NCBI GenBank assembly: GCA_030615965.1
Contig: JAUWYE010000003.1
Coordinates: 1-37,645, forward strand
DNA: 37,645 bases
Source of the DNA: Dehalococcoidia bacterium
GTDB lineage: Bacteria; Chloroflexota; Dehalococcoidia; GIF9; AB-539-J10
Direction of reading: 5' to 3'
Below, one piece after another: positions 6,210 through 34,343 of the stretch (its first letter is position 1; each line of letters starts with the position of its first letter). The notes under the pieces were generated by a model that worked only from the letters and a program-made list of their open reading frames with translations, was not told the origin of the DNA and made no database searches. The position numbers were made by a program, and so were the translations under genes.

Positions 6210-6253
6210 TGAGTAGCTGAGTCACTGACTATGTTAATGCTCCTAGCTACTCA
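6210..6253. repeat. Inverted repeat, 9-bp arms, 26-base loop
   Basis: TGAGTAGCT at 6210-6218 pairs with AGCTACTCA at 6245-6253. It lies in the convergent intergenic gap. It may help end transcription from either side, but it lacks the T-run of an intrinsic terminator. Confidence 0.4.
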
Positions 6254-6479
6254 GAGCACTCATGAACTACACACAAACTCCACTAACTGTACATGCCGTT
6301 TCAGTAACTCGAATACAGTATACCTCATTAGGAAGTCACTAGCTCAGTAGTTTGGTAGGATAAATTCCAGTTCCGTCCATTACACTTTCTGACGTTTTGT
6401 ATTCTCCAACATGCAATATCGTTACCTACAGCCATCCAACTCCAGCCCACTAAACAAACTACCCCAAAACCCATATATT

Positions 6480-7616: not shown

Positions 7617-7637
7617 AATGGCTTAACTTCTTTTAGA

Positions 7638-8417: not shown

Positions 8418-8422
8418 AATAC

Positions 8423-12709: not shown

Positions 12710-15121
12710 TCATGTCAGCTGGTGTTCCGTCCGCGCGATGATCTCATCTTGTACCGCTTTGCCCAGATTAACAAAGTAGGCACTGTAACCAGCTACCCTT
12801 ACAATTAGATCACGATGTCTTTCTGGATACTTTTGGGCGTTCAGTAGTGTGTCCTTATTGATAATATTAAATTGAACATGCTTTCCATCAAAGCTGAAGT
12901 AGGTCTTTATCAGGTCTGATAGTTTTTTCAGGTCTTCTGTGCTCTTTAAGGCCGATGGATGGAACTTCATGTTCAGCAATGTTGACTGGAAGGGCACCTG
13001 GTTTATTGTCATGGCACTTCTAATGAGCGCTGTAGGCCCATGAGTATCCCTACCTTGCGCCGCTGACATTGTTCCGTCAGCCAGAGTTTCACCGGCATAT
13101 CTACCGTCGGGCGTAGCACCGGTTAAGGCTCCACCCGGCACATGCGCCGTAATCGAGATGCCTGCCGGTTTCATTGTCCCCCCCCAAGCAGTAGCGAATG
13201 TAACTGCTGTATCAACCCAACACTGGTAGAGTTCTTTGGCTATCGAGTCAACATAGTAGTCACCATTTCCATATTTGGGTGCCGCCAGAAACAATTTTCG
13301 CATTTCTGTGTATCCATTCCCCTGCCAGTTTGCCTCAAGAGCCGCCTTTAATTCTTTCTTGGCGACTTTCTTTCCGTCAAAGACAAGCCTCTTCACTGCC
13401 GCCATTGAGTCAGCTACATTTATCATGCCAACAGGGTTCAGCATTGAGCCATTCTCAAACGGCATTGTGCGGTCAAGAGCATCTTTGCCTTCCTTTATCG
13501 CGTCAACCATCAGCGCAGAATGAAAAGCGTCAGGGAAGAGTTCAGTCTGCGCTCGTAAGAGAATGTTGTGCTCCTCTGCCGCCAAACCCATGAAATAGGC
13601 AAGCTGTTCCTTGAATGCTTTCATGAAGTCATCGAATGTCTCAAAGCTTTCAAAGTCTCCGGTTCTGGGACCGAGTTGCCTACCGGTCCGCGGTTCAACG
13701 CCGTTGTTCATGGTAATCTCAAAAACCAGCGGTACAATGAACATGCCAATGGCATTGATGCGTGATTTACCGGCTAGGTTAACATCAAGACACCCGGCTA
13801 ATGCGTAATCCCGCGCATCTCGAAGAGGCACACCATGGCTAACCAAGTACTCGATGTAGGACTTGTCCCCGACGAAGGCGGGCATACCAATCCCGGTCTT
13901 CACCACTTCGAGAGCTTTCAGCATTAGGGCTTCGGGTGTCCCCTCATGAACCCTCACCGTTATGGTGTGGTGAGGAGTCTGACAGTCCTTCGCCGCTTCC
14001 AGAATGAGGTAGGATAGCTCGTTGGTAGCGTCTTCACCATCAGGTGTTACACCACCAATAACCCAATTGTTCCACCTGGCCAATCCCGACCACTTCTGTC
14101 GCTGAATATTGCCGCCGCCGACAAAATTGTACTGCATAACCTTAATCCGAAGACATTCCAGCAATTCCAGCACTTCATCGTCGGTGATTCTACCCTCTTC
14201 TTTATCTTTCTTGTAGAACGGGTACATGTATTGGTCAAACCTGCCTCCTGGCGCTGTCCCCTGAGCAATCATCATCCAAGTAAACCAGAAAGCCTGCATC
14301 GCTTCATAAAAGGTTCTGGCCGGGTTACCCGGCACCCAGTGGCACGTTTCCGCTATCCGTTTTAACTCTTTCTTCCGTGTTAGGTCTTTTTCCTTGAAGG
14401 CCATTTCTGCTGCCACGTCAGCGAATCTGTTGGCAAGGCGAACAACAGCCTTATTGATTATGATTACTGACTTCAGAAAATCTGCCTTTTTTATCGCATC
14501 GGTGCTGGTATACCTTAAATTCTTTAACTCTTCCTCTGCGTCTTCTATTATCTTGTTAAGACCCTCATTGAGCACCTTGGCATAGTCCACAACAATGAGA
14601 CACTGGCCCAAGCCTAAACCCCAGCCAACCCCGGCTGCCCCAAACCCACGCCCTTCGTCTTTCTTTTTCCACGGTGGGCAAAGGATACCCGACTGAATGA
14701 ACGGCCACAACCTCTCATCATCGTAGAATTGTCCCTGTCTCTCTTCGAGGGTCCTACCTTTACCTCTCCAGTAGTCATCCATTGACCTTAACAAGGCTTC
14801 ATCTTCATCAGAAATTGTGAGTCCCTGTTTCTTGAGTTCCTCTAGATCTTCCTCAGGCCATGTTGGACCTAGGGAGCCAGCCTCAAGCCCCATTGGTTTA
14901 CTCGCCACGTTGCCAACAATGAGTTCACCATCTTCAATGATTATTGTTTTGTTATCCAAGTAGTGCGCAGTCGCTTTCGCCCTTCTTAGAATTGCCGGTT
15001 CACCCTCGGTCTGTCTATACGAATCCATAACTAGGCGAGCCTTCTCCACGCAAATCGGGTATTTCTCTAATCTAAGACTTTCTTTTAGTTTCTTTACTTT
15101 TTGGTTCACTGTTATCTCCAA
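12710..15121 (-). CDS. Glycyl radical enzyme, PFL/glycerol dehydratase-like family (paralogue 1)
   Basis: An 803-residue protein of the usual length for non-PFL glycyl radical enzymes. The radical-site motif RVAGYSAYF is near the C-terminus with Gly778 as the radical carrier. The thiyl-forming cysteine is Cys444 in AGCLDVN. Such enzymes generate a Cys radical that abstracts H from the substrate; known members eliminate water, trimethylamine or sulfite, decarboxylate arylacetates, or add to fumarate. Most eliminases have Cys-x-Glu; here it is Cys444-Leu-Asp446, so the base is one carbon shorter. No specific substrate can be assigned. It is divergently transcribed from a close paralogue, and the activase lies 10 kb away. 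It needs strict anoxia. Confidence 0.92.
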   Translation of the reverse strand: MEITVNQKVKKLKESLRLEKYPICVEKARLVMDSYRQTEGEPAILRRAKATAHYLDNKTIIIEDGELIVGNVASKPMGLEAGSLGPTWPEEDLEELKKQGLTISDEDEALLRSMDDYWRGKGRTLEERQGQFYDDERLWPFIQSGILCPPWKKKDEGRGFGAAGVGWGLGLGQCLIVVDYAKVLNEGLNKIIEDAEEELKNLRYTSTDAIKKADFLKSVIIINKAVVRLANRFADVAAEMAFKEKDLTRKKELKRIAETCHWVPGNPARTFYEAMQAFWFTWMMIAQGTAPGGRFDQYMYPFYKKDKEEGRITDDEVLELLECLRIKVMQYNFVGGGNIQRQKWSGLARWNNWVIGGVTPDGEDATNELSYLILEAAKDCQTPHHTITVRVHEGTPEALMLKALEVVKTGIGMPAFVGDKSYIEYLVSHGVPLRDARDYALAGCLDVNLAGKSRINAIGMFIVPLVFEITMNNGVEPRTGRQLGPRTGDFESFETFDDFMKAFKEQLAYFMGLAAEEHNILLRAQTELFPDAFHSALMVDAIKEGKDALDRTMPFENGSMLNPVGMINVADSMAAVKRLVFDGKKVAKKELKAALEANWQGNGYTEMRKLFLAAPKYGNGDYYVDSIAKELYQCWVDTAVTFATAWGGTMKPAGISITAHVPGGALTGATPDGRYAGETLADGTMSAAQGRDTHGPTALIRSAMTINQVPFQSTLLNMKFHPSALKSTEDLKKLSDLIKTYFSFDGKHVQFNIINKDTLLNAQKYPERHRDLIVRVAGYSAYFVNLGKAVQDEIIARTEHQLT
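13847..13945. repeat. Gene-conversion-like patch, copy A1 (paralogue 1)
   Basis: On the minus strand this 99-base patch matches 16608-16706 on the plus strand with only three mismatches. The flanking parts of the two genes are clearly more diverged. It encodes the region leading up to the active-site loop. Confidence 0.7.
14459..14557. repeat. Gene-conversion-like patch, copy B1 (paralogue 1)
   Basis: On the minus strand this 99-base patch matches 15996-16094 on the plus strand with a single mismatch. The protein just before it differs strongly between the paralogues. Confidence 0.7.
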
Positions 15122-15449
15122 ACTATAATCGCATTAGACTCTATGGTCACCCTACATTTACCCAGAGCACCTCATCTAGGTATGGATTGTCAAGAGGCTT
15201 TTAGCGCTTGACACGGTGGTGCAGAGTAGTTTTGTGCATTAATCAGAGGTGGTACATAGATTATCTCCTCAATAGTCTACTTCATATATTCCAGCGGGCA
15301 GATTACCGGCGAGCGGCCCTGATATATTATAACAATGTTAATATAATCAAACAATATATTACAACTCTTGTAATTGTTTTTACAAGTGGGTATAATACAA
15401 ACGGACGCGAGGCAAGGTATACTTGCATACTTTTGCTTCGGGGATAATT
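15122..15449. promoter_or_regulatory. Shared regulatory region between the divergent GRE genes
   Basis: No gene is supported in these 328 bases. Near the left gene is an inverted repeat TGTCAAG/CTTGACA (15188-15194 and 15207-15213). On the minus strand its left arm also forms a consensus TTGACA, but I find no good -10 at the right distance. Near the right gene lies the strong promoter described separately. Paired palindromes suggest regulated, perhaps opposed, expression of the two GREs. Confidence 0.5.
15367..15396 (+). promoter_or_regulatory. Promoter with overlapping palindromic operator, upstream of GRE 2
   Basis: A -35 box TTGTAA at 15368-15373 and a perfect -10 TATAAT at 15391-15396 are separated by 17 bases. 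A perfect inverted repeat CTTGTAA-N6-TTACAAG (15367-15373 and 15380-15386) covers the -35 and most of the spacer, where a bound repressor would block RNA polymerase. A MarR-type regulator encoded at 24252 is one candidate. Confidence 0.65.
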
Positions 15450-17846
15450 ATGAGCCAGAGAATAGCGAAACTTAAGGAAGGGCTCCGTATAGATAAGTAC
15501 CCAATCTCCTGCGAGAAGGCTCGACTGATTACAGAGTCCTTTAAGCAGACCGAGGGCGAACCTCAAATCACAAGAAGAGCTAAAGCCCTTGCCAACGTCT
15601 TAGATAAGATAACAATCTTTATTGAAGATGGTGAGCCTATTGTTGGCAATGCGTCAAGTAAACCGATGGGGGTTGAAGTCGACTTCGATTATGGAATATG
15701 GTCCCGTGAAGAAATAGACTGGCTCAAGGAAGAGGGATACACAATCTCCGAAGAGGATGAATCAGAGATAATATCGATGAACGAGTATTGGAAGTCAAGG
15801 ACTCTTGTAGGTAGATCCGGGGAAATATTTGATGACGAAAGGCTGTGGCCATTCAGGCAATTAGGGGTGGCCCTTCCACCATGGAAAAGCAGAACAGAGG
15901 GAAGCGGAGGTGGATATGCCCAGGGTGGCATGGGCTTAGGTCCAGGTTTTCTTTTGTTTGGGGTAGACTTTGCCAAGGTGCTCAATAGCGGCTTCAACAA
16001 GATAATAGAAGACGCAGAGGAAGAGTTAAAGAATTTAAGGTATACCAGCACCGATGCGATAAAAAAGGCGGATTTTCTGAAGTCAGTAATCATATCACTT
16101 AAAGCTATTATTCGCTTTGCTAATAGGTTCACTGACCTGGCAGCAGAAATGGTGGCAAAGGAAAAAGACCTAACACGGAAGAAAGAGTTAAAACGGATAG
16201 CGGAAACGTGCCGATGGGTACCAGCTAATCCAGCAAGAACTTTCTATGAAGCTATACAGTCCTTCTGGTTTACATTCTTGATGATAAACCCATCGACTAC
16301 TGCGGCAGCAGGTAGGTTTGATCAGTATATGTACCCGTTCTACGAGAAGGATAAAGAAGAGGGAAGAATTACCGACGAGGAAGTCTTAGAATTGTTGCAA
16401 TGTCTACGGATTAAGGACATGCAGATAAACCGGACTTCAGGTAAAATTAACCGACAGAAGAACGCGGGGATGGCCAAATGGCACAATTGGACTATTGGTG
16501 GTGTAACACCTGATGGTGAAGACGCTACCAACGAGCTATCCTACCTCATTCTGGAAGCGGCCAAGAGATGCCAGACTACGCATCACACCATAACATTGAG
16601 GGTCTATGAGGGGACACCCGAAGCCCTAATGCTGAAAGCTCTGGAAGTGGTGAAGACCGGGATTGGTATGCCAGCATTCGTCGGGGACAAGTCCTACATC
16701 GAGTACCTGCTCAATCAGGGCGTACCCCTTAAGGTAGCACGAGATTACATAATGACAGGATGTATTGATGTAAATATAGTAGGACAGTCTCGTATTGCAT
16801 CCTACGATATGTTCATTGTTCCGCTAGTTTTTGACATTTTCATGCACAATGGCGTGGACCTGAACACCGGTAAACAAGTTGGCATCAAGACTGGAGACCT
16901 TGAAAGCTTTGAGTCGTTTGATGACCTAGTGAGAGCGTTTAAGGAGCAGCTTGCCTATTTCATGGGTCTGTCTGCAGAATGTAATAATATTCACCTGCGA
17001 GTAAATGCTGAATTATTCCCAGACCCAGTTCGGTCCTCATTGATGCTTGATGCTATTGAGGAAGGCAAGGACATTCTTGATCGCACTTTACCATTTGAGA
17101 ATGCTGCAGTACTTAACGCTGTTGGCATGATAAATGTAGCCGACTCGCTAGCGGCAATAAAGAAGCTTGTCTTCGATGAAAAGAAAGTCACCATGAAAGA
17201 GTTGAAGGCGGCTCTTGACGCAAACTGGCAAGGAGATGGATACGAAGAAATGCGAAAATTGTTTCTGGCGGCACCCAAATATGGAAATGATGACAATTAT
17301 GTGGACTCAATAGCCAAAGACCTCTACAAGTTCTGGGCGGATACGGCAGTGACATTTGATACCATCTTTGGGGGGAAACATAAACCGACAGGCATCTCAA
17401 TTTCAGCACAGTGGCCAGGTGGAGCCTTAACCGGTGCTACCCCTGATGGCAGGTATGCTGGTGAGTGTCTGGCTGATGGAACAATGTCACCTATGCGAGG
17501 CAGGGATACTCATGGGCCTACCGCAGTAATTAAAAGTGCGGCGAAGATAGACCAAGTGCACTATCAGGCTACACTGCTGAACGTGAAGTTCCATCCATCG
17601 GCGTTACAGACTACAGAAGACACGAGGAAACTATCAGATCTGATAAAGACCTACTTTAGCCTAGGTGGAAAGCATATTCAATTCAATGTTGTTGGTAGGG
17701 ACACGTTGCTAGATGCCCAAAGACACCCGGAGAACTACCGTGACCTAGTTGTAAGAGTGGCTGGTTATAGTGCCTACTTTGTACAGCTGGGCAAAGTAAT
17801 ACAAGATGAGATCATCAGGCGGATGGAGTACCAGCAGACGGCATAA
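15450..17846 (+). CDS. Glycyl radical enzyme, PFL/glycerol dehydratase-like family (paralogue 2)
   Basis: A 798-residue protein from the ATG at 15450. The frame opens nine codons earlier, but the paralogue aligns from this Met-Ser-Gln region. The glycyl radical site is RVAGYSAYF with Gly772, and the active Cys438 lies in TGCIDVN with Asp440 in place of the common Glu. It closely resembles paralogue 1 throughout. The paralogues differ around residues 75-170, at 325-335 (QYNFVGGGNIQ against QINRTSGKIN) and around the residues after the Cys, which may change substrate choice. A TRAP solute-binding gene follows 96 bases downstream on the same strand, so import and conversion may be coupled. Specific substrate unknown. 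Confidence 0.92.
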   Translation: MSQRIAKLKEGLRIDKYPISCEKARLITESFKQTEGEPQITRRAKALANVLDKITIFIEDGEPIVGNASSKPMGVEVDFDYGIWSREEIDWLKEEGYTISEEDESEIISMNEYWKSRTLVGRSGEIFDDERLWPFRQLGVALPPWKSRTEGSGGGYAQGGMGLGPGFLLFGVDFAKVLNSGFNKIIEDAEEELKNLRYTSTDAIKKADFLKSVIISLKAIIRFANRFTDLAAEMVAKEKDLTRKKELKRIAETCRWVPANPARTFYEAIQSFWFTFLMINPSTTAAAGRFDQYMYPFYEKDKEEGRITDEEVLELLQCLRIKDMQINRTSGKINRQKNAGMAKWHNWTIGGVTPDGEDATNELSYLILEAAKRCQTTHHTITLRVYEGTPEALMLKALEVVKTGIGMPAFVGDKSYIEYLLNQGVPLKVARDYIMTGCIDVNIVGQSRIASYDMFIVPLVFDIFMHNGVDLNTGKQVGIKTGDLESFESFDDLVRAFKEQLAYFMGLSAECNNIHLRVNAELFPDPVRSSLMLDAIEEGKDILDRTLPFENAAVLNAVGMINVADSLAAIKKLVFDEKKVTMKELKAALDANWQGDGYEEMRKLFLAAPKYGNDDNYVDSIAKDLYKFWADTAVTFDTIFGGKHKPTGISISAQWPGGALTGATPDGRYAGECLADGTMSPMRGRDTHGPTAVIKSAAKIDQVHYQATLLNVKFHPSALQTTEDTRKLSDLIKTYFSLGGKHIQFNVVGRDTLLDAQRHPENYRDLVVRVAGYSAYFVQLGKVIQDEIIRRMEYQQTA
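15996..16094. repeat. Gene-conversion-like patch, copy B2 (paralogue 2)
   Basis: Partner of 14459-14557, in inverted orientation, with one mismatch across 99 bases. It encodes the IIEDAEEELKNLRYTS segment and what follows. Confidence 0.7.
16608..16706. repeat. Gene-conversion-like patch, copy A2 (paralogue 2)
   Basis: Partner of 13847-13945, in inverted orientation, with three mismatches across 99 bases. It encodes EGTPEALMLKALEVVKTG and the next residues. Confidence 0.7.
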
Positions 17847-17942: not shown

Positions 17943-19043
17943 ATGAAAAAGGCAATTTTGTTAATTTGCATCCTGATGGGACTAATGCTCATGATTAGCC
18001 CGCTCTTGGGTGCTTGCGCTGAACCAACACCCGCACCTACCCCGACACCACCACCTACGCCAACTCCGACACCACCACCGCCCCCACCCGAGCCGATAAA
18101 GTTGACCTTTGGCGGTCTGTATCCCCCGGCCCACCCCTTCTCGGTCGCCACTCAAGCCTGGATTGAAAAGATGGCGAAGGAGACCGACGGGCGGGTGGAA
18201 ATCGAGCCATTCTGGGCTGGCGCCCTCTACGGCCCCAGGGAGTCCGCTACCGAGCTAGGCAAGGGAGTAGCCGACACCGGCGACTTCTCCGGTGCCTACG
18301 CTGCTACGGGATTTGACTTCGAGAAGTCGTTTCGTATGGTATTCTGGGGTGTTGACGATAGAGCTCTCGCCCGGAAGGTATATTATGAGGTGTGTGCCAA
18401 GTACCCCGAGCTTGACGCCGAGTTCGCCGATGCCAACATCAAGGTTATGGCATATGCTTCCGTCCCACCCTACCACCTGATTACCGTGGACGACCCGGTC
18501 CGTAAGGTGGACGATTTCAGCGGCCTGATGTTAAAGACGACCGGCGATATTGGCAAGTTGGCTGCTGCCCTCGGCGCTGAGGGGATGACCATAGGCATGG
18601 GCGACACTTATATCGCCCTGCAGAAGAACACCATTGATGGCGGTTTCGTCACGGACGAGACGCTGAAATCGTTCCTGTTCGCCGAGGTGATAAAGTACTG
18701 CACGAGGCTGACCATCGCCTCCGCCCCCGCCGGGCACTGGGGCATGAGCATGGACGTCTGGAACAGCCTGCCACCGGACATCCAGCAGGTGTTTGAGGAC
18801 AACATCGAGTGGTTTGGCTTGAAGGTAGAGGAGTTGGCCTTTGCTATGAATCAGGAGGGCATCGCCCTGGCTGAGCAACATGGGGTGGAGTTCATCGAGC
18901 TTCCACCGGCGGAGCTGGACAAGGTCTACGCAGCGGCTGACACCGTCATACGAGAGGAGATGGCTGACCTTGACGCCAAGGGTTTTGCCGGCACTGCCGT
19001 CTATGAGGAGATACGCCGCCTTATCAAGGAGTACGGCGGTTAG
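17943..19043 (+). CDS. dctP: TRAP transporter solute-binding lipoprotein (DctP family), system 1
   Basis: A 366-residue protein. It has a lipoprotein signal peptide (MKKAILLICILMG onward) with lipobox Leu-Gly-Ala-Cys25, then a Pro/Thr-rich linker at about residues 27-50 that tethers the binding domain to the membrane. The rest is a DctP periplasmic-type fold, including the FxxxGLKVxxxx-like segment DDFSGLMLKTTG near 186-197 and the VWNSLPPDIQQVFEDN helix near 277-292. Family members bind carboxylates or sulfonates through a conserved Arg; the ligand here is unknown. It forms a dctP-dctQ-dctM set with the next two genes. Codon use is visibly more GC-rich than in the neighbouring GRE genes. Confidence 0.93.
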   Translation: MKKAILLICILMGLMLMISPLLGACAEPTPAPTPTPPPTPTPTPPPPPPEPIKLTFGGLYPPAHPFSVATQAWIEKMAKETDGRVEIEPFWAGALYGPRESATELGKGVADTGDFSGAYAATGFDFEKSFRMVFWGVDDRALARKVYYEVCAKYPELDAEFADANIKVMAYASVPPYHLITVDDPVRKVDDFSGLMLKTTGDIGKLAAALGAEGMTIGMGDTYIALQKNTIDGGFVTDETLKSFLFAEVIKYCTRLTIASAPAGHWGMSMDVWNSLPPDIQQVFEDNIEWFGLKVEELAFAMNQEGIALAEQHGVEFIELPPAELDKVYAAADTVIREEMADLDAKGFAGTAVYEEIRRLIKEYGG

Positions 19044-19103
19044 TGTCCAGCAGCAGTGGACTCTGTCCGCAAGCCTTTGACCGCAAGATTAGGTTGTCCT
19101 GAG

Positions 19104-19133
19104 TTGGGGGGTGCTGAGAGTAGCACCCCCCAA
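19104..19133 (+). terminator. Strong hairpin between dctP and dctQ
   Basis: TTGGGGGGTGCT and AGCACCCCCCAA form a perfect 12-bp stem with a 6-base loop. No T-run follows, and a GGGGAG ribosome binding site for dctQ begins right after the stem. This suits an mRNA 3'-end stabiliser or partial attenuator that leaves more binding protein than membrane subunits, rather than a full terminator. Confidence 0.6.
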
Positions 19134-19143
19134 AGGGGAGATT

Positions 19144-19635
19144 GTGGAGATTTTTGCCAGTATAGTCCAACGTGTGACCAGAGTGGGTGCGGTGGCGGCT
19201 GGGGTCTTCTTGTTGGGCGCCATGTTACTTATTGTGACCGGCGTCATCGTCCGCTTCTTCAACATAGCTATTGTCGGCAGCTACGAACTGATGGAGCTGA
19301 TGATGGCGGTCACTATCGCCTTTGCCCTGGTCTATACCGCCCTGCGGAAGGGGCACGTTGTGGTCAAGATTATCGTCTCTCGATTCCCGACAAGGCTCGG
19401 AGCCATCGTCGGTATAGCGGTCTCCTTCCTCAGCTTGGCCATATGGGGTCTGATGAGCTTTGCGGCAACACAGCTGGTCTATGAGAAGGGGCTGAGGGAG
19501 GTAAGCGAAACGCTGGAGTTGCCCTACCTCCCTTTCCGGATTGTGTTTATATTAGGCCTGTTCTTGTTCTCGCTGACCTACGTTTCGGACATCTTTGAGG
19601 AATTCAAAAAGGTGCTAGGCAAATGGACCCGGTAA
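19144..19635 (+). CDS. dctQ: TRAP transporter small membrane subunit (DctQ family), system 1
   Basis: About 163 residues from the GTG at 19144. The open frame extends to a GTG at 19111, but that lies inside the hairpin stem, whereas 19144 has GGGGAG just upstream. Four hydrophobic helices are visible, with the conserved DctQ segment GSYELMELMMAVTIAFAL near residues 44-61 and a ready helix end RxGHVVVKIIVSRFP. DctQ holds the large permease together with the solute-binding protein. It overlaps the dctM start by 13 bases, indicating translational coupling. Confidence 0.9.
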   Translation: MEIFASIVQRVTRVGAVAAGVFLLGAMLLIVTGVIVRFFNIAIVGSYELMELMMAVTIAFALVYTALRKGHVVVKIIVSRFPTRLGAIVGIAVSFLSLAIWGLMSFAATQLVYEKGLREVSETLELPYLPFRIVFILGLFLFSLTYVSDIFEEFKKVLGKWTR

Positions 19636-20921
19636 CTATCGGCCTTATTGGCTTCGTGATACTCTTCTCGCTTCTGGCTCTTGGTATACCCATCGGTGCC
19701 GGCATGGCTCTAGTAGGCTTTGTTGGAGTGTGGTTTATTACTTCCGAGGTGGCTGCCTTAACCAAGCTGGCTATCGTGCCCTTCCAGGTGGCGACAGACT
19801 ACTCCCTGGCGGTGCTGCCGCTCTTCCTGCTCATGGCTCATGTGGTCTTTGTCACTGGAATGGGCCGCGACCTGTTCAACCTGATGGCCAAATGGCTGGG
19901 GCACCAGCCCGGTGGGGTGGCCCAGGCCGCCGTCGCCGGCTGTGCCGGCTTTGCCGCCGTCAGCGCCTCAAGTATAGCCACGGCAGCTACCATGGGCCTG
20001 GTGGCTTTACCCGAGATGAAGCGGCTGAAGTACGACCCGGCTCTGGCTACCGGTGCCGTCGCCGCCGGGGGTAGCATGGGCGTTCTCATCCCCCCGAGCG
20101 GGGCACTCATTATCTACGGCATACTTACTGAGACATCCATCGGCAAGCTGTTCGCCGCCGGCCTTATCCCCGGCATACTGGAGGCGGTATTCTACATGGT
20201 TACCATATACATCCTGTGCACCTGGCGGCCCAGCCTTGGCCCCCGCGGTGAGAAGGCCACCTTCAGGGAGAAGATAGCGGCCTTTGGCAGTTGTGGTGAG
20301 GTAATCGCGCTTGCAGCCCTGGTGCTCACAGGCATAATCGTGGGCTGGTTTACGCCCACGGAGGCTGGTGCCGTCGGCGCCTTCGGGGCGATACTCTTCG
20401 CGCTGTTAAGGAAAAGGCTCAATTGGGAGAAGATGAAGACTGCCGTGCTGGAGACCCTGAAGACCACGGGGATGATCTACGGCATATTGATCGGCGCCTT
20501 CATCTTCAACTACTTCCTGGCTCCCACCACTATTCCCTACGTCATCGCTGAATCCGTAGGCGGCTTACCCTTGCCCCCAATGGCCATCTTGGGGATGGTG
20601 CTGATGGTATTCTTCTTCCTTGGCTGCTTTCTAGACGTCGCCGCGATGACTGTGCTCACCATACCCATCTTCTTCCCGCTGATTACCAGTCTGGGATTCA
20701 ACCCGGTGTGGTTCGGCATCCTGTTTGTGAGGATGGCAGAGATAGCCATGATTACCCCCCCGATAGGTATGAACGTTTATGTCATCGCCGGAGTCGCCCC
20801 CGATGTGCCCCTCCAGACGATATTCAAGGGTATTGTACCCTTTGTGTTGGCCGACTTCTTCCACGTGGCCCTGCTGCTGTTTGTCCCGGCAATTGTGCTG
20901 TTTCTGCCAGGCTTGATGTAA
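19623..20921 (+). CDS. dctM: TRAP transporter large permease (DctM family), system 1
   Basis: A 432-residue, very hydrophobic protein with about a dozen predicted membrane helices. Hallmark segments of DctM/SiaM are present: the ASSIATAATMGLVALPEM loop around residues 118-135, the GGSMGVLIPPSGALIIYG hairpin region after about 143, and TPTEAGAVGAFGA near 242-254, followed by the second IPP-type loop MITPPIGMNVYVIAG. This subunit carries substrate and Na+ across the membrane. It is closely similar to the second dctM at 34823, but its codons are far more GC-rich; one 60-base stretch reaches 43 of 60 G+C. Likely co-transcribed with the MmgE/PrpD gene that follows after 64 bases. Confidence 0.93.
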   Translation: MDPVTIGLIGFVILFSLLALGIPIGAGMALVGFVGVWFITSEVAALTKLAIVPFQVATDYSLAVLPLFLLMAHVVFVTGMGRDLFNLMAKWLGHQPGGVAQAAVAGCAGFAAVSASSIATAATMGLVALPEMKRLKYDPALATGAVAAGGSMGVLIPPSGALIIYGILTETSIGKLFAAGLIPGILEAVFYMVTIYILCTWRPSLGPRGEKATFREKIAAFGSCGEVIALAALVLTGIIVGWFTPTEAGAVGAFGAILFALLRKRLNWEKMKTAVLETLKTTGMIYGILIGAFIFNYFLAPTTIPYVIAESVGGLPLPPMAILGMVLMVFFFLGCFLDVAAMTVLTIPIFFPLITSLGFNPVWFGILFVRMAEIAMITPPIGMNVYVIAGVAPDVPLQTIFKGIVPFVLADFFHVALLLFVPAIVLFLPGLM

Positions 20922-20985: not shown

Positions 20986-22359
20986 ATGAGGGAATCTCGG
21001 ATACTGGCGGAACACATTGCCCACATTCACTATGATGACATACCTAGCAGTGCTGTAGATGTCACAAAAAGTAGTCTTCTTGACGGACTAGGTGTGATAC
21101 TAGCTGCCGGCACTATGGGTGAAGGGTGCCAGCAGTTTGTCAACCTAGCTATAGAAGAGAGTGGGAAAGAAGAAAGCACAATCATTGGTTTTAATGCCAA
21201 GGTATCGGCAGCTATGGCTGCATTTGCTAATGGATCGATGTCGCATGCGCTGGATTTTGAGGACACTCATGACAGAGCGCTTGTCCATCCCAACGCAGCA
21301 ACAATACCGGCTGCCCTTGCAGTAGCTGAATCTATCGGGAATGTGAGCGGCAAGGAGCTCATTACGGCACTTGCCCTCGGAAGCGATATTGTTTCCAGGT
21401 TAGGTCTTGCACTAAAGGAGGACCCTATTAGATATGGTTGGTATATGCCCCCAATCTTGGGGGCTTTTGGCGCCGCAACGGCGGCTTGCAAGTTACTGAA
21501 CTTGAGTCCAAAGCAGATACTGGATGCCTTTTCTCTAACCCTTTGTCAGGTAACGTGTAGTGCAGAACTAACACGTAGTCCCCACTCAGTTGTCAGAGCC
21601 ATACGGGATGCTTTTTCAGCAAAGGCGGGTGTGTTATCAGCACTGTTGGCTGAAAAAGGCGTCACTGGCTTTGAGCAGCCAATAGAAGGTAAAGCCGGGC
21701 TTTTCCGGCTGTATTCAAGGGAAGACTATGACCTTACGGTGCTAGGGGATGGGCTTGGCAAAACCTTTGAGGGTGCTAATGTTAGCTTTAAGCCGTGGCC
21801 AAGTTGTCGCGGCACTCATTCCTTTATAGAAGCGACCTTTCAAATTGTGAACACTCACGATATAAAGCCCGGTGATATCGAAGACATTAGATTGATTGTA
21901 AGTCCTACCCCACTTAATAGAGTGCTCTGCGAGCCTTTGGAGACAAAACGGAGCCCAAGAACAGCCATAGATGCTAAATTTAGTATACCCTTTATTGTGG
22001 CTCTAGCCTCAGTCCGGAGAGGAGTTACTCTGAGGCATTTCACCCCACAAGCTCTAACAGACCCTGAGGTACTTGAAGTCGCCCAGAAGATTGCCTATGA
22101 GTTAGATAGCAAACTGGAGCCTATGGAGGGCTTCATACAGATAAAGGCTGGACACAAAGTGATGAGTTCAAAAATACCAGAGTTCGCTTATGGGCATCCT
22201 ACAAACCCGATAAGCCAGGAGTCACTTGTTGCCAAGTTCGTGGATTGTGCCGGGCATTCGGCAAAACAAATCCCAAGGGAAAACCTCAACAAACTAACAG
22301 AACTGATTTTGCACTTGGAAGATGTCAAGAACATCAGAGAGATTTTAGTGTATCTCTAG
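20986..22359 (+). CDS. MmgE/PrpD family protein
   Basis: A 457-residue protein of normal family length, with an AAAGGGGGT ribosome binding site. The family signature FANGSMSHALDFEDTH is at about residues 80-95, followed by a HPNAATIPAALAVAE helix. Members dehydrate 2-methylcitrate (PrpD), decarboxylate cis-aconitate, or act on related hydroxy di- and tricarboxylic acids; many environmental paralogues are of unknown role. Here it follows a TRAP transporter, so it may act on the imported acid or on a later intermediate. Gly-rich and His residues of the signature are intact. A PrpD-like methylcitrate role is less likely because no citrate synthase or methylisocitrate lyase is nearby. Confidence 0.88.
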   Translation: MRESRILAEHIAHIHYDDIPSSAVDVTKSSLLDGLGVILAAGTMGEGCQQFVNLAIEESGKEESTIIGFNAKVSAAMAAFANGSMSHALDFEDTHDRALVHPNAATIPAALAVAESIGNVSGKELITALALGSDIVSRLGLALKEDPIRYGWYMPPILGAFGAATAACKLLNLSPKQILDAFSLTLCQVTCSAELTRSPHSVVRAIRDAFSAKAGVLSALLAEKGVTGFEQPIEGKAGLFRLYSREDYDLTVLGDGLGKTFEGANVSFKPWPSCRGTHSFIEATFQIVNTHDIKPGDIEDIRLIVSPTPLNRVLCEPLETKRSPRTAIDAKFSIPFIVALASVRRGVTLRHFTPQALTDPEVLEVAQKIAYELDSKLEPMEGFIQIKAGHKVMSSKIPEFAYGHPTNPISQESLVAKFVDCAGHSAKQIPRENLNKLTELILHLEDVKNIREILVYL

Positions 22360-22856: not shown

Positions 22857-23990
22857 CTAGGCTTTCCGAATTAGGACTTCATCTCTTTCAATAACGTACT
22901 TAGTATTAAAACCTTGGTCTCGGGTAATCTCCTCCATGTATCTGACCACTTCACCAAACCGCTCATCTTTTGAACTCAAGACCTCTGGCTGAGATTGTTT
23001 ATTGATATAGGTAGGCAGAAAGGAAACACTCCTTATCTCTCCATTGGAGATAACACATTTAACAATAATTGTTTTCCTCGAATCAGGGGGTAAATAATAA
23101 GTGGGATACTCGGGGTCTGGCTGCCAGCTAGGATTAAGCACCTGTATTTCTTTATGCCTTGGACTTTCTAGCATTTCCTTGGTTGGAGACAGGTCTAAAG
23201 CAAAATTACAGAGGCTATAAAAGACCACTTTACCTGCATAAACCTCAATGCCCTTGAGTATGTGGGCGTGATGACCCAGTATCAGGTCACCTCCAGAATC
23301 AATCGCTACACGAGCGATCTCTTTTTGATATTCGGCTATCACGGCAGGGATGAAATGGATTCCCCAGTGCATGGACAGGATTACTAAGTCAGCTTGAGAC
23401 TTTGCTTTCCTGATATCATCCACCATCGCCTGCAGGTCATCCCTGTGGGGAAAGGTATGTATTCGGCATGGCGTGCCTGGCTGATCATGCTCAATCTGCT
23501 CATATAAGGTGAGACCCCTCATGGGAGCACAACCCGGACGATCGGTCTCAGCCCAATACCCCTGCGGTAAGATTGAATTGTAGGCTAAAAAGGCTATTCG
23601 GGTTCCCTTACATTCAACAATTGCTGGCTTTCGAGCCTCTTCAATATTCCTACCCACACCTATGACCATGAGCCCCTGTTCCTCAAGGGCGTGTATAGTA
23701 TCAAAAAAGGCTTCACGCCCCCAGTCCATGCAGTGATTGCTAGCGAAAGAGACGATACTGAAACCAGCTTCTTTAATTGCCTGGGCTGTTTTGGGATCAG
23801 CACGCATGGCAAGCCTAGCTTGTGGCAGAGGAGTCCCTTTGTGAGATAGATTGATTTCAAGCTGACAGAAGGCTATGTCAGCTTGTCTGGGAATGACTGC
23901 GACACACTGAAAAATTGAGCCCGGGTCTTCCCTATAGGGAGCCACATCGCCAACGGCATACAACACCAAATCATTAGCCTTATTTACCAT
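22857..23990 (-). CDS. CapA-like metallophosphatase-fold protein 1
   Basis: A 377-residue protein from the ATG at 23990, preceded by a GGAG ribosome binding site; an upstream in-frame start is less likely. CapA-family metal-binding motifs are in order: Gly14-Asp15, Glu45, Asn85-His86, His208-Trp-Gly, and Gly-His-His-Ala-His at 239-243. The best known members help make poly-gamma-glutamate capsule, but no capB/capC-type genes are present. The cytoplasmic-looking N-terminus lacks a signal or anchor. It is transcribed away from the MarR gene and has a paralogue at 31811, so a role in the catabolic pathway, perhaps hydrolysing a phosphate or amide bond, is possible but unproven. Confidence 0.8.
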   Translation of the reverse strand: MVNKANDLVLYAVGDVAPYREDPGSIFQCVAVIPRQADIAFCQLEINLSHKGTPLPQARLAMRADPKTAQAIKEAGFSIVSFASNHCMDWGREAFFDTIHALEEQGLMVIGVGRNIEEARKPAIVECKGTRIAFLAYNSILPQGYWAETDRPGCAPMRGLTLYEQIEHDQPGTPCRIHTFPHRDDLQAMVDDIRKAKSQADLVILSMHWGIHFIPAVIAEYQKEIARVAIDSGGDLILGHHAHILKGIEVYAGKVVFYSLCNFALDLSPTKEMLESPRHKEIQVLNPSWQPDPEYPTYYLPPDSRKTIIVKCVISNGEIRSVSFLPTYINKQSQPEVLSSKDERFGEVVRYMEEITRDQGFNTKYVIERDEVLIRKA

Positions 23991-24169
23991 GCACTTCTCC
24001 TTTCTCCCGTATATTTGACGTCCTCCTACCACGTCCTATGATAGACGCATCCCCAATAAGGCGGTTTCACCAGAAGTAAGGTTTCGACACTATTATAAGA
24101 TGTCTTCAGCATAATATAAATAGTGCATGTTTATCTGTCATTAAATTTATCTTTTTGTATATTATAACA

Positions 24170-24251: not shown

Positions 24252-24797
24252 ATGACGGTGAAGAGGGAGATTCAAAAAGTAGACAGGGAGATTCGAGCCA
24301 TGAACTTTCCCCGTCTTGTTGTGTTCGCTGATGTTGTAAACCGGTACACCAATAAAGTATTTAGGAGCAAGACCAGTTGGCTGCGAACAAGCGCCTTGTT
24401 TTTCATGATTACACGAGGGGGTAGTCTGACCCCCAGTCAGCTTGCCCGCATTATGCTTCGCTCTAACTACAGTGTGACGAAGATAATTGATGGTCTTGAG
24501 AAAGATGGATTGGTGAGAAGACGTCGTAATAGGAGGGATCGAAGGACTGTTAATGTTCAAGTAACTCCCGCTGGTCTAGAGTTTGTCATGGCAAGCTTAA
24601 ATAATGCTACTGTGGCTGAGGATGAAGTGAAATCCTGCCTGAGTAATAATGAACTTAAAGTGCTGGCAGACCTTACTCGTAAATTGAGGCTCAGACTTAT
24701 TGACAGGGTATCTGAAAGATATTCGCTCTCCGTCGATGATAGACGGGCGATTTTTGAAAAACCACTTACTTGGATATCAGAAATGTCAAAAAAGTAG
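24252..24797 (+). CDS. MarR-family transcriptional regulator
   Basis: A 181-residue protein. The winged helix spans about residues 55-125: SLTPSQLARIMLRSNYSVTKIIDGLEKDGLVRRRRNRRDRRTVNVQVTPAGLE-like sequence contains the helix-turn-helix and the Arg-rich Asp-Arg-Arg wing typical of MarR. Helices on both sides form the dimer interface. Members usually repress divergent or downstream genes until a small aromatic or acidic ligand binds. It lies between the CapA gene and the activase operon, so it is the natural candidate to control this cluster, with its own promoter showing repeated GTTGTA words. The ligand is unknown. Confidence 0.88.
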   Translation: MTVKREIQKVDREIRAMNFPRLVVFADVVNRYTNKVFRSKTSWLRTSALFFMITRGGSLTPSQLARIMLRSNYSVTKIIDGLEKDGLVRRRRNRRDRRTVNVQVTPAGLEFVMASLNNATVAEDEVKSCLSNNELKVLADLTRKLRLRLIDRVSERYSLSVDDRRAIFEKPLTWISEMSKK

Positions 24798-24902: not shown

Positions 24903-25492
24903 TTGTCAAAAAGCCTTTTATTGAAGGAACTATCTCGGTATAGTATTGGCACGTACGCAGATATAATCTATAGAAATGCGCTCCTGTATCCAAACCAAGA
25001 AGCCTTCGTGTATGGAGATACGAGGATAACCTTCTCCGAGTTTAATACAAGAGTTAATAGGCTGATTCATGCCTTACATGAGATGGATGTTAAAAAGGGG
25101 GATGTGCTTGGCATTCTATCTTTGAACTGTCTGCAGTTTGCAGATGTGTATGGTGCAGCAATGAAAGGAGGATTCATTGCTGCACCATTTAATACGAGGT
25201 TGAAAGCGGAAGAGCTTGATTACATCATCAATTATTCGGAAGCCAATATCCTTTTTGTAGGGCCTGAATTATTAGAAGTGGCCAATTCCCTTAAGCTGCG
25301 ACTACCTAAGGTTAAGAATTTTATCTGCAGGGAGCAAGCACTACTGCCGAAGAGCTTATCGCCTTTTGCAAAGAGACCATAGCAGGTTATAAAGCACCGA
25401 AGTCGGTTGAGTTTGTTGATTCCCTGCCCAAGAACCCTGCCGGCAAGATTTTGAAGCGCGAGCTGAGGGAGAAGTACTGGAAAGGGCTATAG
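24903..25492 (+). pseudogene. Acyl-CoA ligase (AMP-binding) with internal deletion and frameshift
   Basis: The N-terminal 140 or so codons start at a TTG behind a strong AGGAGGT site and match the ANL ligase opening (YADIIYRNALLYPNQEAFVYGD; AAPFNTRLKAEELDYIINYS). Near 25330 the reading jumps to another frame, where the C-terminal domain appears: TAEELIAFCKETIAGYKAPK followed by the catalytic-lysine motif Pro-Lys-Asn-Pro-Ala-Gly-Lys-Ile-Leu-Lys. The middle, about 350 residues holding the AMP-binding and adenylation core, is gone. The gene cannot make an active enzyme. Its loss suggests CoA activation now depends on the CoA-transferases downstream; that is inference. Confidence 0.88.
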
Positions 25493-25527
25493 CAGTATTG
25501 CCCTGAGCTACTGCCACTTTACAGAAG

Positions 25528-26493
25528 GTGGTGTTTGTGGTACAGACTGAAGATGAGATAATTAGCAGAAATGAAGTAGAAGCTACAAAAGGCGTGATTT
25601 TCAATATACAACATTACTCCATTCACGATGGTCCTGGAATTCGGACTACTGTTTTTATTAAGGGATGCCCGCTGAAGTGTGTTTGGTGTCAGAACCCTGA
25701 GTCACAAGCATCGCAACCTGAAATCTTTTTTGATAGCGAGAAGTGTACTGGATGTGGAAAATGTGCTCAGGCTTGCCCAGAGGGAGCCATCGAAATTTAC
25801 GAGGGACGATCGAGGACGAACCGGCAGCTTTGCAAGGGTGCTGGGAAGTGTGCTGAAGTGTGTCCCAATGAGGCAAGAAATCTTATGGGAAGATATGTCA
25901 CAGCCGGAGAGGTTTTCAAAGAAGTGCAAGGGGACGCAATATTCTACCAGAGGTCGGGTGGTGGCGTCACCCTGAGTGGTGGTGAGCCCTTGGCCCAACC
26001 TCAGTTTGCGATTAGCTTGCTTAAGCTCTGTAAGGATGCTGGCATACATACAGCACTCGATACGTGTGGATACGCCAGATGGGAAACTGTGAAGCGGATT
26101 CTAAATTATGTTGACCTAGTGCTGTATGACCTTAAACATATGGATCCGGTTGAACATGAGAAGTGCACTGGGGTATCAAACGACTTGATATTGGATAACG
26201 TGAGAAAGATTCATCATGAGTTGCCCATTCCCATTCTTGCTCGGGTATCCATAATACCGGGTTACAGTGATTCTGTTGAAAACATTGAGGCAACAGCTAA
26301 ATTCATAGCAACTGAACTAGGGAATTCAATAAAGGTTCATCTTCTCCCATATCATCGGCTTGGGGAGACAAAATACGAAAGGCTGGAAAGGCTGGGCAAA
26401 TCAGTCTCAATTGAACCTCCCAGTGATGAGCATATGTCGGAACTCCAAAAGATTGTCGAGTCTTTTGGGTTAATAGCTTACATAGGTGGGTGA
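25528..26493 (+). CDS. Glycyl radical enzyme activating enzyme (radical SAM)
   Basis: A 321-residue protein. Start choice is open among several in-frame GTG codons; the one at 25537 has a better-spaced AAGG site. The radical SAM cluster motif is Cys47-x3-Cys51-x2-Cys54, followed by the ferredoxin-like insert: the first site has four Cys (73, 76, 79, 83), while the second reads Cys102-Lys-Gly-Ala105-Gly-Lys-Cys108-x3-Cys112, where Ala replaces an expected Cys. The GGEP motif is at about 151-154. It abstracts H from the GRE radical-site glycine using S-adenosylmethionine. As the only activase in the window it probably serves both GREs. It lies between the broken ligase and a dehydratase-type gene. 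Confidence 0.92.
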   Translation: MVFVVQTEDEIISRNEVEATKGVIFNIQHYSIHDGPGIRTTVFIKGCPLKCVWCQNPESQASQPEIFFDSEKCTGCGKCAQACPEGAIEIYEGRSRTNRQLCKGAGKCAEVCPNEARNLMGRYVTAGEVFKEVQGDAIFYQRSGGGVTLSGGEPLAQPQFAISLLKLCKDAGIHTALDTCGYARWETVKRILNYVDLVLYDLKHMDPVEHEKCTGVSNDLILDNVRKIHHELPIPILARVSIIPGYSDSVENIEATAKFIATELGNSIKVHLLPYHRLGETKYERLERLGKSVSIEPPSDEHMSELQKIVESFGLIAYIGG

Positions 26494-26557: not shown

Positions 26558-27748
26558 TTGAGAAGAATGGACGCATTTGAGACGATGCAAAAGCATTATC
26601 AGCAGCGTGACCTAGCCGCCAGGAAATGGAAGGAAAAAGGGGGAAAGGTGGCAGGTTATTTCTGTAACAATGTTCCCGAGGAAATGATTCTAGCTGCTGG
26701 CTTCTTCCCTTTTCGAATCAGTGGTGACCCGTGGGGTGGCACAGAGGTAGCGGACAGATACACTGAACCCTTTTACGAACCTGACGTGCGTTCCATGTTC
26801 AACATGCTTCTGACCGGGCGGTATGATTTTCTGGATTTCCTGATTATCCCACATTCCAGGGATGCTATTCTCGCATTGTATTATCACCTGGGCAAAGTGC
26901 AACAGATTGCCCCCACCCTGAAGCTTCCCGAACTTCACCTTTTTGATACACCTCATACCAGGTTCTGGATGTCTGGCCTTTATATGCGTGACAGGGTGCG
27001 TGAACTTAAGAAGAAACTAGAAGAATGGTCAGGGCAAGAGATTTCCAACGAACGGCTATCAAAAGCCATAGCCATCGGAAATGAAAACAAGATGTTGCTG
27101 AAGAAGGTTGCTGCCCTGAGGGCAGCCGAGCCACCGCGCATCTCAGGGGTGGAAGCACTCCAGATAATCGGGTCATCCATGTTTATGCTTAAGGAGGAGC
27201 ATAACAAGCTGCTCAGACAATTTCTGACGGAGGCTGCTCGGCTTCCTGCCAAGGATGGTGTAAGGCTATTTGTCGAAGGAAGCCCTATTGATAATTTGCA
27301 ATTCTATGAACTTGTTGAATCCGGCAATGCTACGATTGTTGGTGAGGATAACTGCTGGGGCAACAGGTATTCTGATGACCCAGTGGACGTATCTCTTGAC
27401 CCTCTAGAGGCTATTGCCGAGAGATATCACCTTAAATCACCCTGTCCTCGGATGCATCCCATGGATCGGAGAGTGGAGTATTGCCTACGGAGCGCTGTAG
27501 AGGCGAAGGCGCAAGGGATGATATTTTTCTTTCTTGAGTGGGATAATGCCCTAGCCTGGGAGTATCCTGACCAGAAAAAGGCACTGGAAGAGAAAGGTAT
27601 ACCGACTGTGTGTTTTGAGATGCAGAAATACCTTCTATCTGATCCTGAGCGTGAGCGGCTAAGAACCCGTATTGAGCAATTTGTTGAAGCTATAGGCATG
27701 GATAAAAAGTCGGCAAGAAGTGCTCATGCTCGACATGCTGCTCAGTGA
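26558..27748 (+). CDS. 2-hydroxyacyl-CoA dehydratase / benzoyl-CoA reductase-type subunit lacking usual cluster cysteines
   Basis: A 396-residue protein; ATG at 26567 or TTG at 26558. The opening GYFCNNVPEEMILAAGFFPFRI (about 33-54) is the family's N-terminal hallmark. The three places where family members bind a 4Fe-4S cluster align here with FYEPDVRS (72-79), IPHSRDA (97-103) and FLEWDNALA (325-333), and none has Cys; the remaining cysteines (36, 266, 296, 309, 352) are elsewhere. A second family subunit at 30403 keeps likely ligands, so this one may be a structural or substrate-binding partner with no cluster. No ATPase activator is in the window. The alignment is from memory of the family, so residue matching needs checking. 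Confidence 0.8.
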   Translation: MRRMDAFETMQKHYQQRDLAARKWKEKGGKVAGYFCNNVPEEMILAAGFFPFRISGDPWGGTEVADRYTEPFYEPDVRSMFNMLLTGRYDFLDFLIIPHSRDAILALYYHLGKVQQIAPTLKLPELHLFDTPHTRFWMSGLYMRDRVRELKKKLEEWSGQEISNERLSKAIAIGNENKMLLKKVAALRAAEPPRISGVEALQIIGSSMFMLKEEHNKLLRQFLTEAARLPAKDGVRLFVEGSPIDNLQFYELVESGNATIVGEDNCWGNRYSDDPVDVSLDPLEAIAERYHLKSPCPRMHPMDRRVEYCLRSAVEAKAQGMIFFFLEWDNALAWEYPDQKKALEEKGIPTVCFEMQKYLLSDPERERLRTRIEQFVEAIGMDKKSARSAHARHAAQ

Positions 27749-27864
27749 GCAGGCCAAAGACTTTTCTTCACAATGCACACTAAAAATGGATTTTAACAAT
27801 GAAAGAGTGTAGGGACAGTTAGAATCTACCATAGTTGTAATTCATGAGTAGACAGAGGTAGGCA

Positions 27865-29106
27865 ATGGCTGACAGTTTATTGGGTGGTTTTCGGGCTCTG
27901 GATCTAACGGATGAGAAAGGGTTTGTCTGTGGTAAGATTCTGGCGGCTTTAGGGGTGGAGACAATAAAGATTGAGAAACCTGGGGGAGACCCAGCACGAG
28001 GCATTCCCCCCTTTCTTCATGATGCACCGGCTCCTGAAAAAAGTCTGTACTGGTTTGCTTTCAATACCGATAAGCGGAGCATAACCCTTAATCTGGATGC
28101 GAGCCAAGGGCAAGACTTGTTCCGGAAACTAGTGGAGAGAGCTGACTTCGTGCTGGAGTCGTTTGCTCCAGGCTATATGGATAGCCTTGGGCTCGGTTAT
28201 GAAGCGTTAAGGCGAGTAAATCCTAGGATTATTATGACCTCGATAACCCCATTTGGGCAGAAAGGTCCCTATGCTCAATATAAGGGGAGTGAGTTGATAG
28301 CTTCTGCCATGAGTGGAGTCATGGTAAGCACTGGAGACCCGGATCGGCCACCTGTCAGGGAGGGGCCTGATTCTATATACTTCCGCTCTAGTGCTGCGGC
28401 TGCTCTCGGGACAGTAATGGCCCATTACTATCGTGAAAACACTGGCGAAGGACAACAAGTTGATGTTTCCCTGCAGGAGGTTGCCGCCAGCAGAACCTCA
28501 TCGGATCTTGTGGTCTGGGAGTTTGATAAGCGCTTGATAAAACGAAATGCCACTATCCGTACGGTTGGCGCTCGTGCTACTCAATGGCTCTGGCGATGTA
28601 AGGGCGGGTACGTGTTCTGGCCGTATATGGGTGGTCCGGGTGGAGCGCCGGCTAATAGCGCTCTGTCGCAATGGATTGACGACGATGGATTAGAGAATCC
28701 GCTTAATCAGGTGACAAATTGGGACGAATTTGATTTTGCCACATTGCCCAGGGCAGTGCTTGACGTCCAGCAGGAGGCAATACGCAAGTTCTTCATGAAC
28801 CACACCAAGAAAGAAATCGCTGAGGAGGGATTGAAGAGGGGGATAAATGCAAGTGTGGTAAATAATCCTGCCAATGTGCTTGAAAACCCGCAACTTGAAG
28901 CACGGAGCTATTGGGTAGAATTAGAACATTCCGAATTAGGCGTTACGCTTACCTATCCAAAGTATTTCTTTTTAAATAATCAGACGGAGAACTTTATAAG
29001 ACGCCGAGCACCACTTATCGGTGAGGACAACGACGATATCTATGCAAATGAGCTAGGATTGTCGAGCACTGAAATGGTGGCATTGAAGGAAGCAGGTGTT
29101 ATTTGA
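27865..29106 (+). CDS. Class III CoA-transferase (CaiB/BaiF family), first of a pair
   Basis: A 413-residue protein with a GAGGT site before the ATG. Family features: DLTDEKGFVCGKILAALGVETIKIEKPGGD at the N-terminus, FNTDKRSITLNLD near 66-78, GYMDSLGLGYEALRRVNPRIIM near 103-124, and TGEGQQVDVSLQE with the expected catalytic Asp200. Such enzymes move CoA between organic acids via an Asp-bound anhydride or thioester. The next gene encodes a second member 13 bases downstream, so they may form a heterodimer like benzylsuccinate CoA-transferase, or two enzymes with different acids. Its C-terminal motif RAPLIGEDNDDIYANELGL reappears as a stump at 31708. Confidence 0.9.
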   Translation: MADSLLGGFRALDLTDEKGFVCGKILAALGVETIKIEKPGGDPARGIPPFLHDAPAPEKSLYWFAFNTDKRSITLNLDASQGQDLFRKLVERADFVLESFAPGYMDSLGLGYEALRRVNPRIIMTSITPFGQKGPYAQYKGSELIASAMSGVMVSTGDPDRPPVREGPDSIYFRSSAAAALGTVMAHYYRENTGEGQQVDVSLQEVAASRTSSDLVVWEFDKRLIKRNATIRTVGARATQWLWRCKGGYVFWPYMGGPGGAPANSALSQWIDDDGLENPLNQVTNWDEFDFATLPRAVLDVQQEAIRKFFMNHTKKEIAEEGLKRGINASVVNNPANVLENPQLEARSYWVELEHSELGVTLTYPKYFFLNNQTENFIRRRAPLIGEDNDDIYANELGLSSTEMVALKEAGVI

Positions 29107-29119
29107 GAAGGAAGAACAA

Positions 29120-30358: not shown

Positions 30359-30402
30359 AGCAGGTTATTGGTGGTAGTGGTATACGAAAGTGAGGCTGAT
30401 GG

Positions 30403-34252: not shown

Positions 34253-34343
34253 GGTTTAACTGACACATAGAGAACATACACTCTTGCACATAAAGTCGTA
34301 ATAATTCCTTGCCCCGACGCAAGAGGGCAGTGGAACGTAAAGT

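Follow-up and report, generated by a model that had tools for sequence, protein, structure and literature searches.

The two divergent genes at positions 12710 to 17846 of the window, i.e. the whole stretch of 37,645 nucleotides that was analysed, encode intact members of one uncharacterised family of glycyl radical enzymes (GREs), the Cys-x-Asp or 'CxD' family. In a literature search that was not exhaustive, we found no description of this family.

12710..15121, minus strand: GRE-A, glycyl radical enzyme of the A subclade in the tree; PF02901 and PF01228; loop GCLDVNLAGKSR, radical loop RVAGYSAYF
15122..15422, no strand: intergenic region common to the divergent GRE-A and GRE-B genes, 301 bp
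15423..17846, plus strand: GRE-B, glycyl radical enzyme of the B subclade; PF02901 and PF01228; loop GCIDVNIVGQSR; Cys447, Asp449, Arg457 and Gly781 in the model

The ORFs of GRE-A (803 aa) and GRE-B (807 aa) are uninterrupted, with mechanically assigned TTG starts. The sequence context suggests the ATG at 15450 as the probable start of GRE-B; for GRE-A, it favours a GTG that lies a few codons inside the ORF and follows GGAG. GRE-A harbours the motif ...ARDYALAGCLDVNLAGKSR... with the Cys loop GCLDVN, and GRE-B the motif ...ARDYIMTGCIDVNIVGQSR... with GCIDVN. The first-pass annotation had reported these Cys loops and the radical loop RVAGYSAYF in both paralogues, and we found them where it had placed them. 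It had also rightly called the genes divergent, as they lie on opposite strands with divergent transcription and their products share 71% amino acid identity.

Both proteins score above the gathering thresholds of PF02901 (PFL-like; 573 bits for GRE-A and 584 for GRE-B) and PF01228 (Gly_radical; 102 and 123 bits). The window copies have the hallmarks of the superfamily, namely the Gly loop RVxG[FWY], the catalytic Cys447 and the barrel fold, and both carry Gly at the radical position rather than the Thr of threonyl radical enzymes. The AlphaFold2 model of GRE-B (pLDDT 94, pTM 0.93) was most similar in the PDB, according to Foldseek, to glycerol dehydratase 1r8w (TM 0.94, 37% identity). On another contig (C18), the genome encodes a third GRE with its own activase; this one is of the ordinary Cys-x-Glu type (GCSEAQ).

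Extent and phylogeny of the CxD family

Using an alignment of GRE-A, GRE-B and a 46%-identical protein of the Novosphingobium sp. PP1Y plasmid Mpl as the family query, we collected 68 loci in a profile search of genome contigs; extra genes of the same genomes brought the family to 93 members. The hosts of the 68 loci include Dehalococcoidia, Deltaproteobacteria, Burkholderiaceae, Sterolibacterium, Sphingomonas and many Clostridia, gut isolates among them, and the 93 members span Chloroflexota, Clostridia, Deltaproteobacteria and Alpha- and Betaproteobacteria. The family, of which this many members were found with little effort, is thus broad, with representatives in gut, soil and sediment bacteria. 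As it has cultured members, both from the human or animal gut (Hominifimenecus, Cuneatibacter, Intestinimonas, Murimonas) and among other anaerobes (Geosporobacter, Youngiibacter, Fusibacter), the question of its substrate is directly testable.

The residue two positions after the catalytic Cys (Cys+2) is Asp in 85 members, Glu in four, Gly in three and Ala in one, and Arg is found at Cys+10 in 84 of the 93. Together, Cys-x-Asp and the Arg at Cys+10 make a simple diagnostic for the family. With 85 of 93 members carrying it, the Asp appears to be a selected, family-wide feature, far beyond chance, which supports the earlier suggestion that its conservation in the two paralogues reflects a selected change.

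In a tree of 75 GREs (LG+C20, 780 columns, SH-aLRT support only), the CxD family formed a single clade (support 99) without any characterised enzyme inside. GRE-A and GRE-B, which the first-pass annotation had proposed to place in such a tree, fell outside every characterised isofunctional cluster. The two types represent old subclades, A with a support of 100 (nine rows) and B with 94. The eight members with Glu, Gly or Ala at Cys+2 are confined to two derived lineages, the Glu copies forming one branch within A and the Gly and Ala copies one branch with the sphingomonads. Since each of these groups is a single branch, Asp is the original residue of the family, from which the exceptions have departed.

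The A-type copies with Cys-x-Glu occupy the GRE-A position in the related loci L035 to L037 and are also found in L162; they harbour Ser or Ala at Cys+10, not Arg. The exchange of Asp/Arg for Glu/Ser(Ala) thus looks like a single paired switch inside the A subclade. The Gly or Ala lineage comprises proteins of Sphingomonas soli (L083), Novosphingobium PP1Y Mpl (L034) and Sterolibacterium (L082, L163), with radical loops of the form R(I/V)GGCS(A/V)YF. The 3.5-Mb genome of S. soli encodes two family copies beside HGD-D, CoA-transferase, PaaX and RPE65 genes, and no GRE activase was detected in it at E <= 1e-20. GREs are oxygen-sensitive; in S. soli, presumably an aerobe, the two copies may work without a radical or be activated in another way.

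Among 100 relatives of the window's genome, no protein was more than 43% identical to GRE-B except over short fragments (50-54%). Together with the distribution of the family over several phyla, this points to spread by horizontal transfer. Viral contigs searched with GRE-B gave no match.

We considered whether the Cys-x-Asp loop might be a unique one-off and rejected this idea, as a distant tandem pair of ~860-aa GREs, arranged in the window's order, also has it (L110:889-6175 and L111:664-5924; Cys loops SCVDLC and GCVDMV; radical loops VKVGGYSA(C/Y)F). The substitution has thus arisen at least twice. Other uncharacterised GREs (L108, L124, L167, L006-L008, L159) harbour further unusual residues at Cys+2, namely Arg (GC(V/M)RW), Tyr (GCVY), and His and Asn in a tandem pair (GCVHP/GCANP). 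The notion of A and B as an obligate heterodimer was weakened by the many genomes that encode B alone (e.g. G106) and by some loci with A alone. Judging from these gene contents, GRE-A and GRE-B need not act as a pair.

Gene neighbourhoods

Downstream of GRE-B, the window contains the following genes.

17943..20921, plus strand: TRAP transporter DctP-DctQ-DctM next to GRE-B, candidate for organic-acid uptake (PF03480, PF04290, PF06808)
20986..22359, plus strand: MmgE/PrpD family protein (PF03972/PF19305); nearest solved proteins IRG1/cis-aconitate decarboxylase-like and IDS-epimerase
22857..24032, minus strand: PGA_cap protein 1, calcineurin-like (PF09587), relative of the peptide epimerase MslH
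24252..24797, plus strand: MarR-type regulator (PF12802/PF01047)
24903..25497, plus strand: acyl-CoA ligase, apparently decayed (tblastn; PF00501 fragment)
25528..26493, plus strand: GRE activating enzyme, radical SAM protein with two ferredoxin-type 4Fe-4S motifs (TIGR02494, 365 bits for a cut-off of 174)
26558..31707, plus strand: HGD-D, CoA_transf_3, CoA_transf_3 and HGD-D, i.e. a pair of the 2-hydroxyacyl-CoA dehydratase/benzoyl-CoA reductase type and two type III CoA-transferases
31811..32932, plus strand: PGA_cap protein 2 (PF09587; PDB 8gqb/8gq9)
33224..36142, plus strand: second TRAP transporter DctP-DctQ-DctM
36390..37643, plus strand: URO-D family protein (PF01208), running off the window

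The activase is the only one for GREs in the window. The HGD-D proteins are BzdO/BzdN-like, and the nearest solved relative of the second type III CoA-transferase is benzylsuccinate CoA-transferase. Elsewhere in the window's genome, a single 690-aa frame with BadF domains in tandem (G000:C139:8986-10662; L192, L193) might encode an activator of the HGD-D proteins. The nearest solved relative of the PGA_cap proteins is described in the PDB as a 'poly-gamma-glutamate synthesis protein', which we take to be MslH. An epimerase role of the PGA_cap proteins here is a guess. MslH itself is a peptide epimerase (PMC10406935). The ligase remnant matches residues 14-148 and 478-530 of the 530-residue ligase in the syntenic locus L035 (76% and 87% identity), and the middle ~330 codons are missing; it is either a decayed gene or an assembly collapse. 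On the other side of the GRE locus, positions 2074-10006 contain restriction-modification genes, which code for an N6 methylase (1060 aa), an endonuclease of the TdeIII type and a DNA methylase of the N4/N6 type.

Dehalococcoidia MAGs have the same gene order (L035, L036; in L037 as far as the ligase), i.e. GRE-A, GRE-B, MmgE, PGA_cap, ligase, activase and PGA_cap. Relative to them, the TRAP and MarR genes and the HGD-D block of the window are inserts. The ligase gene is whole in the MAGs. The first 7 kb of L035-L037, just upstream of the GRE pair, code for two ATPases of the BadF/BcrAD type, a GltD-like protein that depends on NAD, and a thiolase together with a short partner, a block that represents an aromatic-acid or a 2-hydroxyacyl-CoA module.

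We compared the environments of 69 family loci with those of 20 loci of other GREs, taken from some of the same genomes; the p-values serve as a guide only, as the loci are related, hence not phylogenetically independent, and many are short. Genes for PucR-type regulators (24/69 versus 0/20, p = 0.0007), MmgE/PrpD (15/69 versus 0/20, p = 0.015) and PGA_cap proteins (18/69 versus 1/20, p about 0.04) were more frequent beside family members. Carboxylate carriers (CitMHS/MatC, TctA, TRAP, DASS) were found in 24 of the 69 family loci, including 21 of the 39 long ones, versus three of the 20 controls, but none of the carriers reaches significance when taken singly (p = 0.135 for CitM). URO-D-like genes recur as well, and the HGD-D/CoA-transferase set is also present in L055 and L083. 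The Youngiibacter locus L055 has these elements in one run, namely a carrier, GRE-B, the activase, another carrier, PGA_cap, two HGD-D genes and one for a type III CoA-transferase. Benzoyl-CoA-reductase-like and aromatic genes accompany the family in Chloroflexota and Sphingomonas, and citrate-type carriers in Clostridia. As the hints from the neighbours differ by lineage, the CxD family may cover more than one acid. Our literature search yielded no paper linking a GRE with MmgE/PrpD.

Active site and proposed reaction

Neither GRE-A nor GRE-B comes near any of the NCBIfam equivalog cut-offs, which for full-length GREs are at about 1000 bits or more. Scores were 549 bits for CutC (cut-off 1050), 550 for HypD (1100), 438 for HPAD (1150), 521 for IAD (1100) and 591 for HpsG, the (S)-3-sulfopropanediol dehydratase (1000). 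Even the broad subfamily TIGR01774 was missed (600 and 629 bits for the two copies, cut-off 678). Identity to all references is at most 40%, with 39-40% for glycerol dehydratase (GD) and 30-38% for PD, CutC, HypD, HpsG, HPAD, BssA and E. coli PflD and YbiW.

We mapped known substrate residues through the alignment and checked the numbering by the type of residue found. The Cys and Gly are kept in both copies, and the substrate residues of GD, CutC, HypD, HPAD and BSS are mostly replaced. For GD, His164 is changed to Leu, His281 to Ala/Gly, Ser282 to Ala or a gap, Glu435 to Asp and Asp447 to Ser/Ala, and Tyr339 is also replaced. The same holds for Tyr208, Asp216, Thr502 and Tyr506 of CutC, for Arg156, His160 and Tyr450 of HypD, and for HPAD Glu505 (Asp), Glu637 (Asn) and His536; the counterpart of HPAD Arg223 is an Arg in GRE-A only. 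In BssA, which we identified by an adjacent BssD scoring over the curated cut-off, the fumarate Arg508 corresponds to a gap and Gln707 to Ile, and Glu189 is not kept.

The CXE signature of GRE eliminases, with Glu at Cys+2, is thus replaced by Cys-x-Asp in both copies, a difference that also sets them apart from the isethionate sulfite-lyase IslA (residues Arg189, Gln193 and Arg678). The first-pass annotation had attributed this Glu to arylacetate decarboxylases as well, which is correct for HPAD and IAD. However, PAD has Gln (PMC9248008), and the AAD of Olsenella scatoligenes (PDB 7e7l) has Leu (GCVLHQ). Cys-x-Glu is therefore not general among GRE decarboxylases and, with Ser/Ala at Cys+2 in the LCM(A/S)PG loop of BssA, a missing Glu is not new by itself.

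AAD appears to be the nearest characterised relative of the CxD family by its active-site region, as it forms one clade with 30 family rows (99/87) in a tree limited to 161 aa of that region. AAD also has His387 and Thr389, two residues of a barrel strand that are diagnostic of the family. In the full-length tree, BssA and HPAD are nearer to the CxD clade and the eliminase branches (PD/GD, CutC, HpsG) further away. No AAD homologues above about 45% were found in Clostridia.

Based on these data, we propose that GRE-A and GRE-B are functional enzymes that most likely cleave a C-C bond of a carboxylate, with Asp449 as the acid/base, and we give this reading a probability of roughly 0.4. The activase at 25528-26493 would install the glycyl radical on GRE-A and GRE-B, and the radical would pass from Gly to the Cys thiyl, which would abstract hydrogen from an anionic carboxylate imported by carriers of the TRAP, CitMHS/MatC or Tct type. 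Family-specific basic residues could hold this substrate, candidates being Arg329, Arg344, Lys346, Arg457 and Lys750; such residues are invariant in the CxD family and missing from most reference enzymes. Asp449, which is shorter than the Glu that usually serves as acid/base and is probably near Arg457, would handle the proton. By analogy with AAD, the most likely outcome would be decarboxylation of the non-oxidative kind. MmgE/PrpD, PGA_cap (a possible epimerase) and the CoA-transferase and HGD-D proteins may process the acid before or after this step. A point against this reading is the reversion of an A sublineage to Cys-x-Glu, which suggests a task that Glu can also perform.

The decarboxylation step rests mainly on the 161-aa region tree, as the comparison is limited to the AAD fragment, whereas full-length identity and fold are closest to an eliminase, GD. 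As the active-site tree and the overall identity and fold disagree, decarboxylation appears only moderately favoured over elimination; more generally, we infer decarboxylation or elimination of an anionic carboxylate with Asp as acid/base. In a dehydratase-like reaction, the thiyl would abstract H from a hydroxylated carboxylate, Asp449 would deprotonate the hydroxyl, and a beta group (water, amine or other) would leave. The HGD-D and CoA-transferase neighbours would suit such a hydroxy-acid pathway, and a carboxylate is kept at Cys+2 in 89 of the 93 members. Nevertheless, the replaced GD, CutC and HypD substrate residues and the position of the CxD clade on the AAD/HPAD/BSS side of the tree make elimination the somewhat less probable reaction.

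The grouping with AAD would also fit ordinary arylacetate decarboxylases that, like known GREs, act on phenylacetate, p-hydroxyphenylacetate or something closely similar, as would the aromatic-type neighbours, i.e. the BzdO/BzdN-like HGD-D and benzylsuccinate-type CoA-transferase of the window and PaaX and RPE65 in Sphingomonas. However, AAD lacks the Asp and Arg457, the window copies match neither the HPAD nor the IAD equivalog, and the citrate, tricarboxylate and dicarboxylate carriers of Clostridia, with MmgE/PrpD, do not suggest aryl monoacids, so that this role is unlikely. The two tandem type III CoA-transferases, one of them nearest to benzylsuccinate CoA-transferase, and the thiolase and BadF ATPases of L035-L037 brought to mind X-succinate synthases, which join a hydrocarbon to fumarate; the CoA-transferases would then play the part of BbsEF. 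We rejected this idea, which we regard as very improbable, on account of the active-site residues described above and the lack of space for small Bss-type subunits beside the genes (gaps of about 300 and 96 bp); in addition, the window activase scores 236 against BssD, for a cut-off of 496. Least probable of all is that radical chemistry was lost or changed to another mechanism. The S. soli members without Asp or Glu, in a genome in which we detected no activase, are in line with it, but the window copies keep the Gly, Cys, Asp and fold, with a nearby activase that passes TIGR02494.

Taking the family as a whole, we hold it slightly short of an even bet that this cross-phylum group uses the Asp/Arg pair around its catalytic Cys to convert a di- or tricarboxylate by chemistry not yet known from GREs, e.g. 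by a radical decarboxylation without oxidation. It would do so in environmental anaerobes and in Clostridia of the gut, and a sphingomonad side lineage would have lost the carboxylate at Cys+2 and, at least in S. soli, lacks a recognisable activase.

Comparison with known systems

GREs catalyse difficult reactions of anaerobic metabolism, and every new family to date has brought a new metabolic step. The CxD family lies within this superfamily and does not constitute a new kind of enzyme, and AAD, PAD and BSS are earlier cases in which the CXE Glu has been lost. The glycerol/1,2-propanediol dehydratases (1r8w, 5i2a, 9rco) have the highest overall identity to the family (37-40%; TM 0.94), but they harbour Glu rather than Asp and form a separate branch of the tree. 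HPAD, IAD and PAD share the GRE scaffold, and HPAD adjoins the CxD clade (support 84, on a long branch), yet the window copies are far below the HPAD and IAD cut-offs and lack HPAD Glu637 and His536. BssA and the X-succinate synthases also lack the CXE Glu and branch near the family; they differ by the BssA loop and by the fumarate Arg508, absent from the window copies. AAD, likewise without the CXE Glu, shares His387, Thr389 and Phe419 with the family, in contrast with Leu and Ser in place of the Asp and Arg at Cys+2 and Cys+10, and is about 31-32% identical overall. Lastly, the pairs of threonyl radical enzymes (PMC11528403), which we compared by their description only, consist of two homologues with one activase in common and are frequent in gut Clostridia; unlike them, all CxD family radical loops that we read have Gly.
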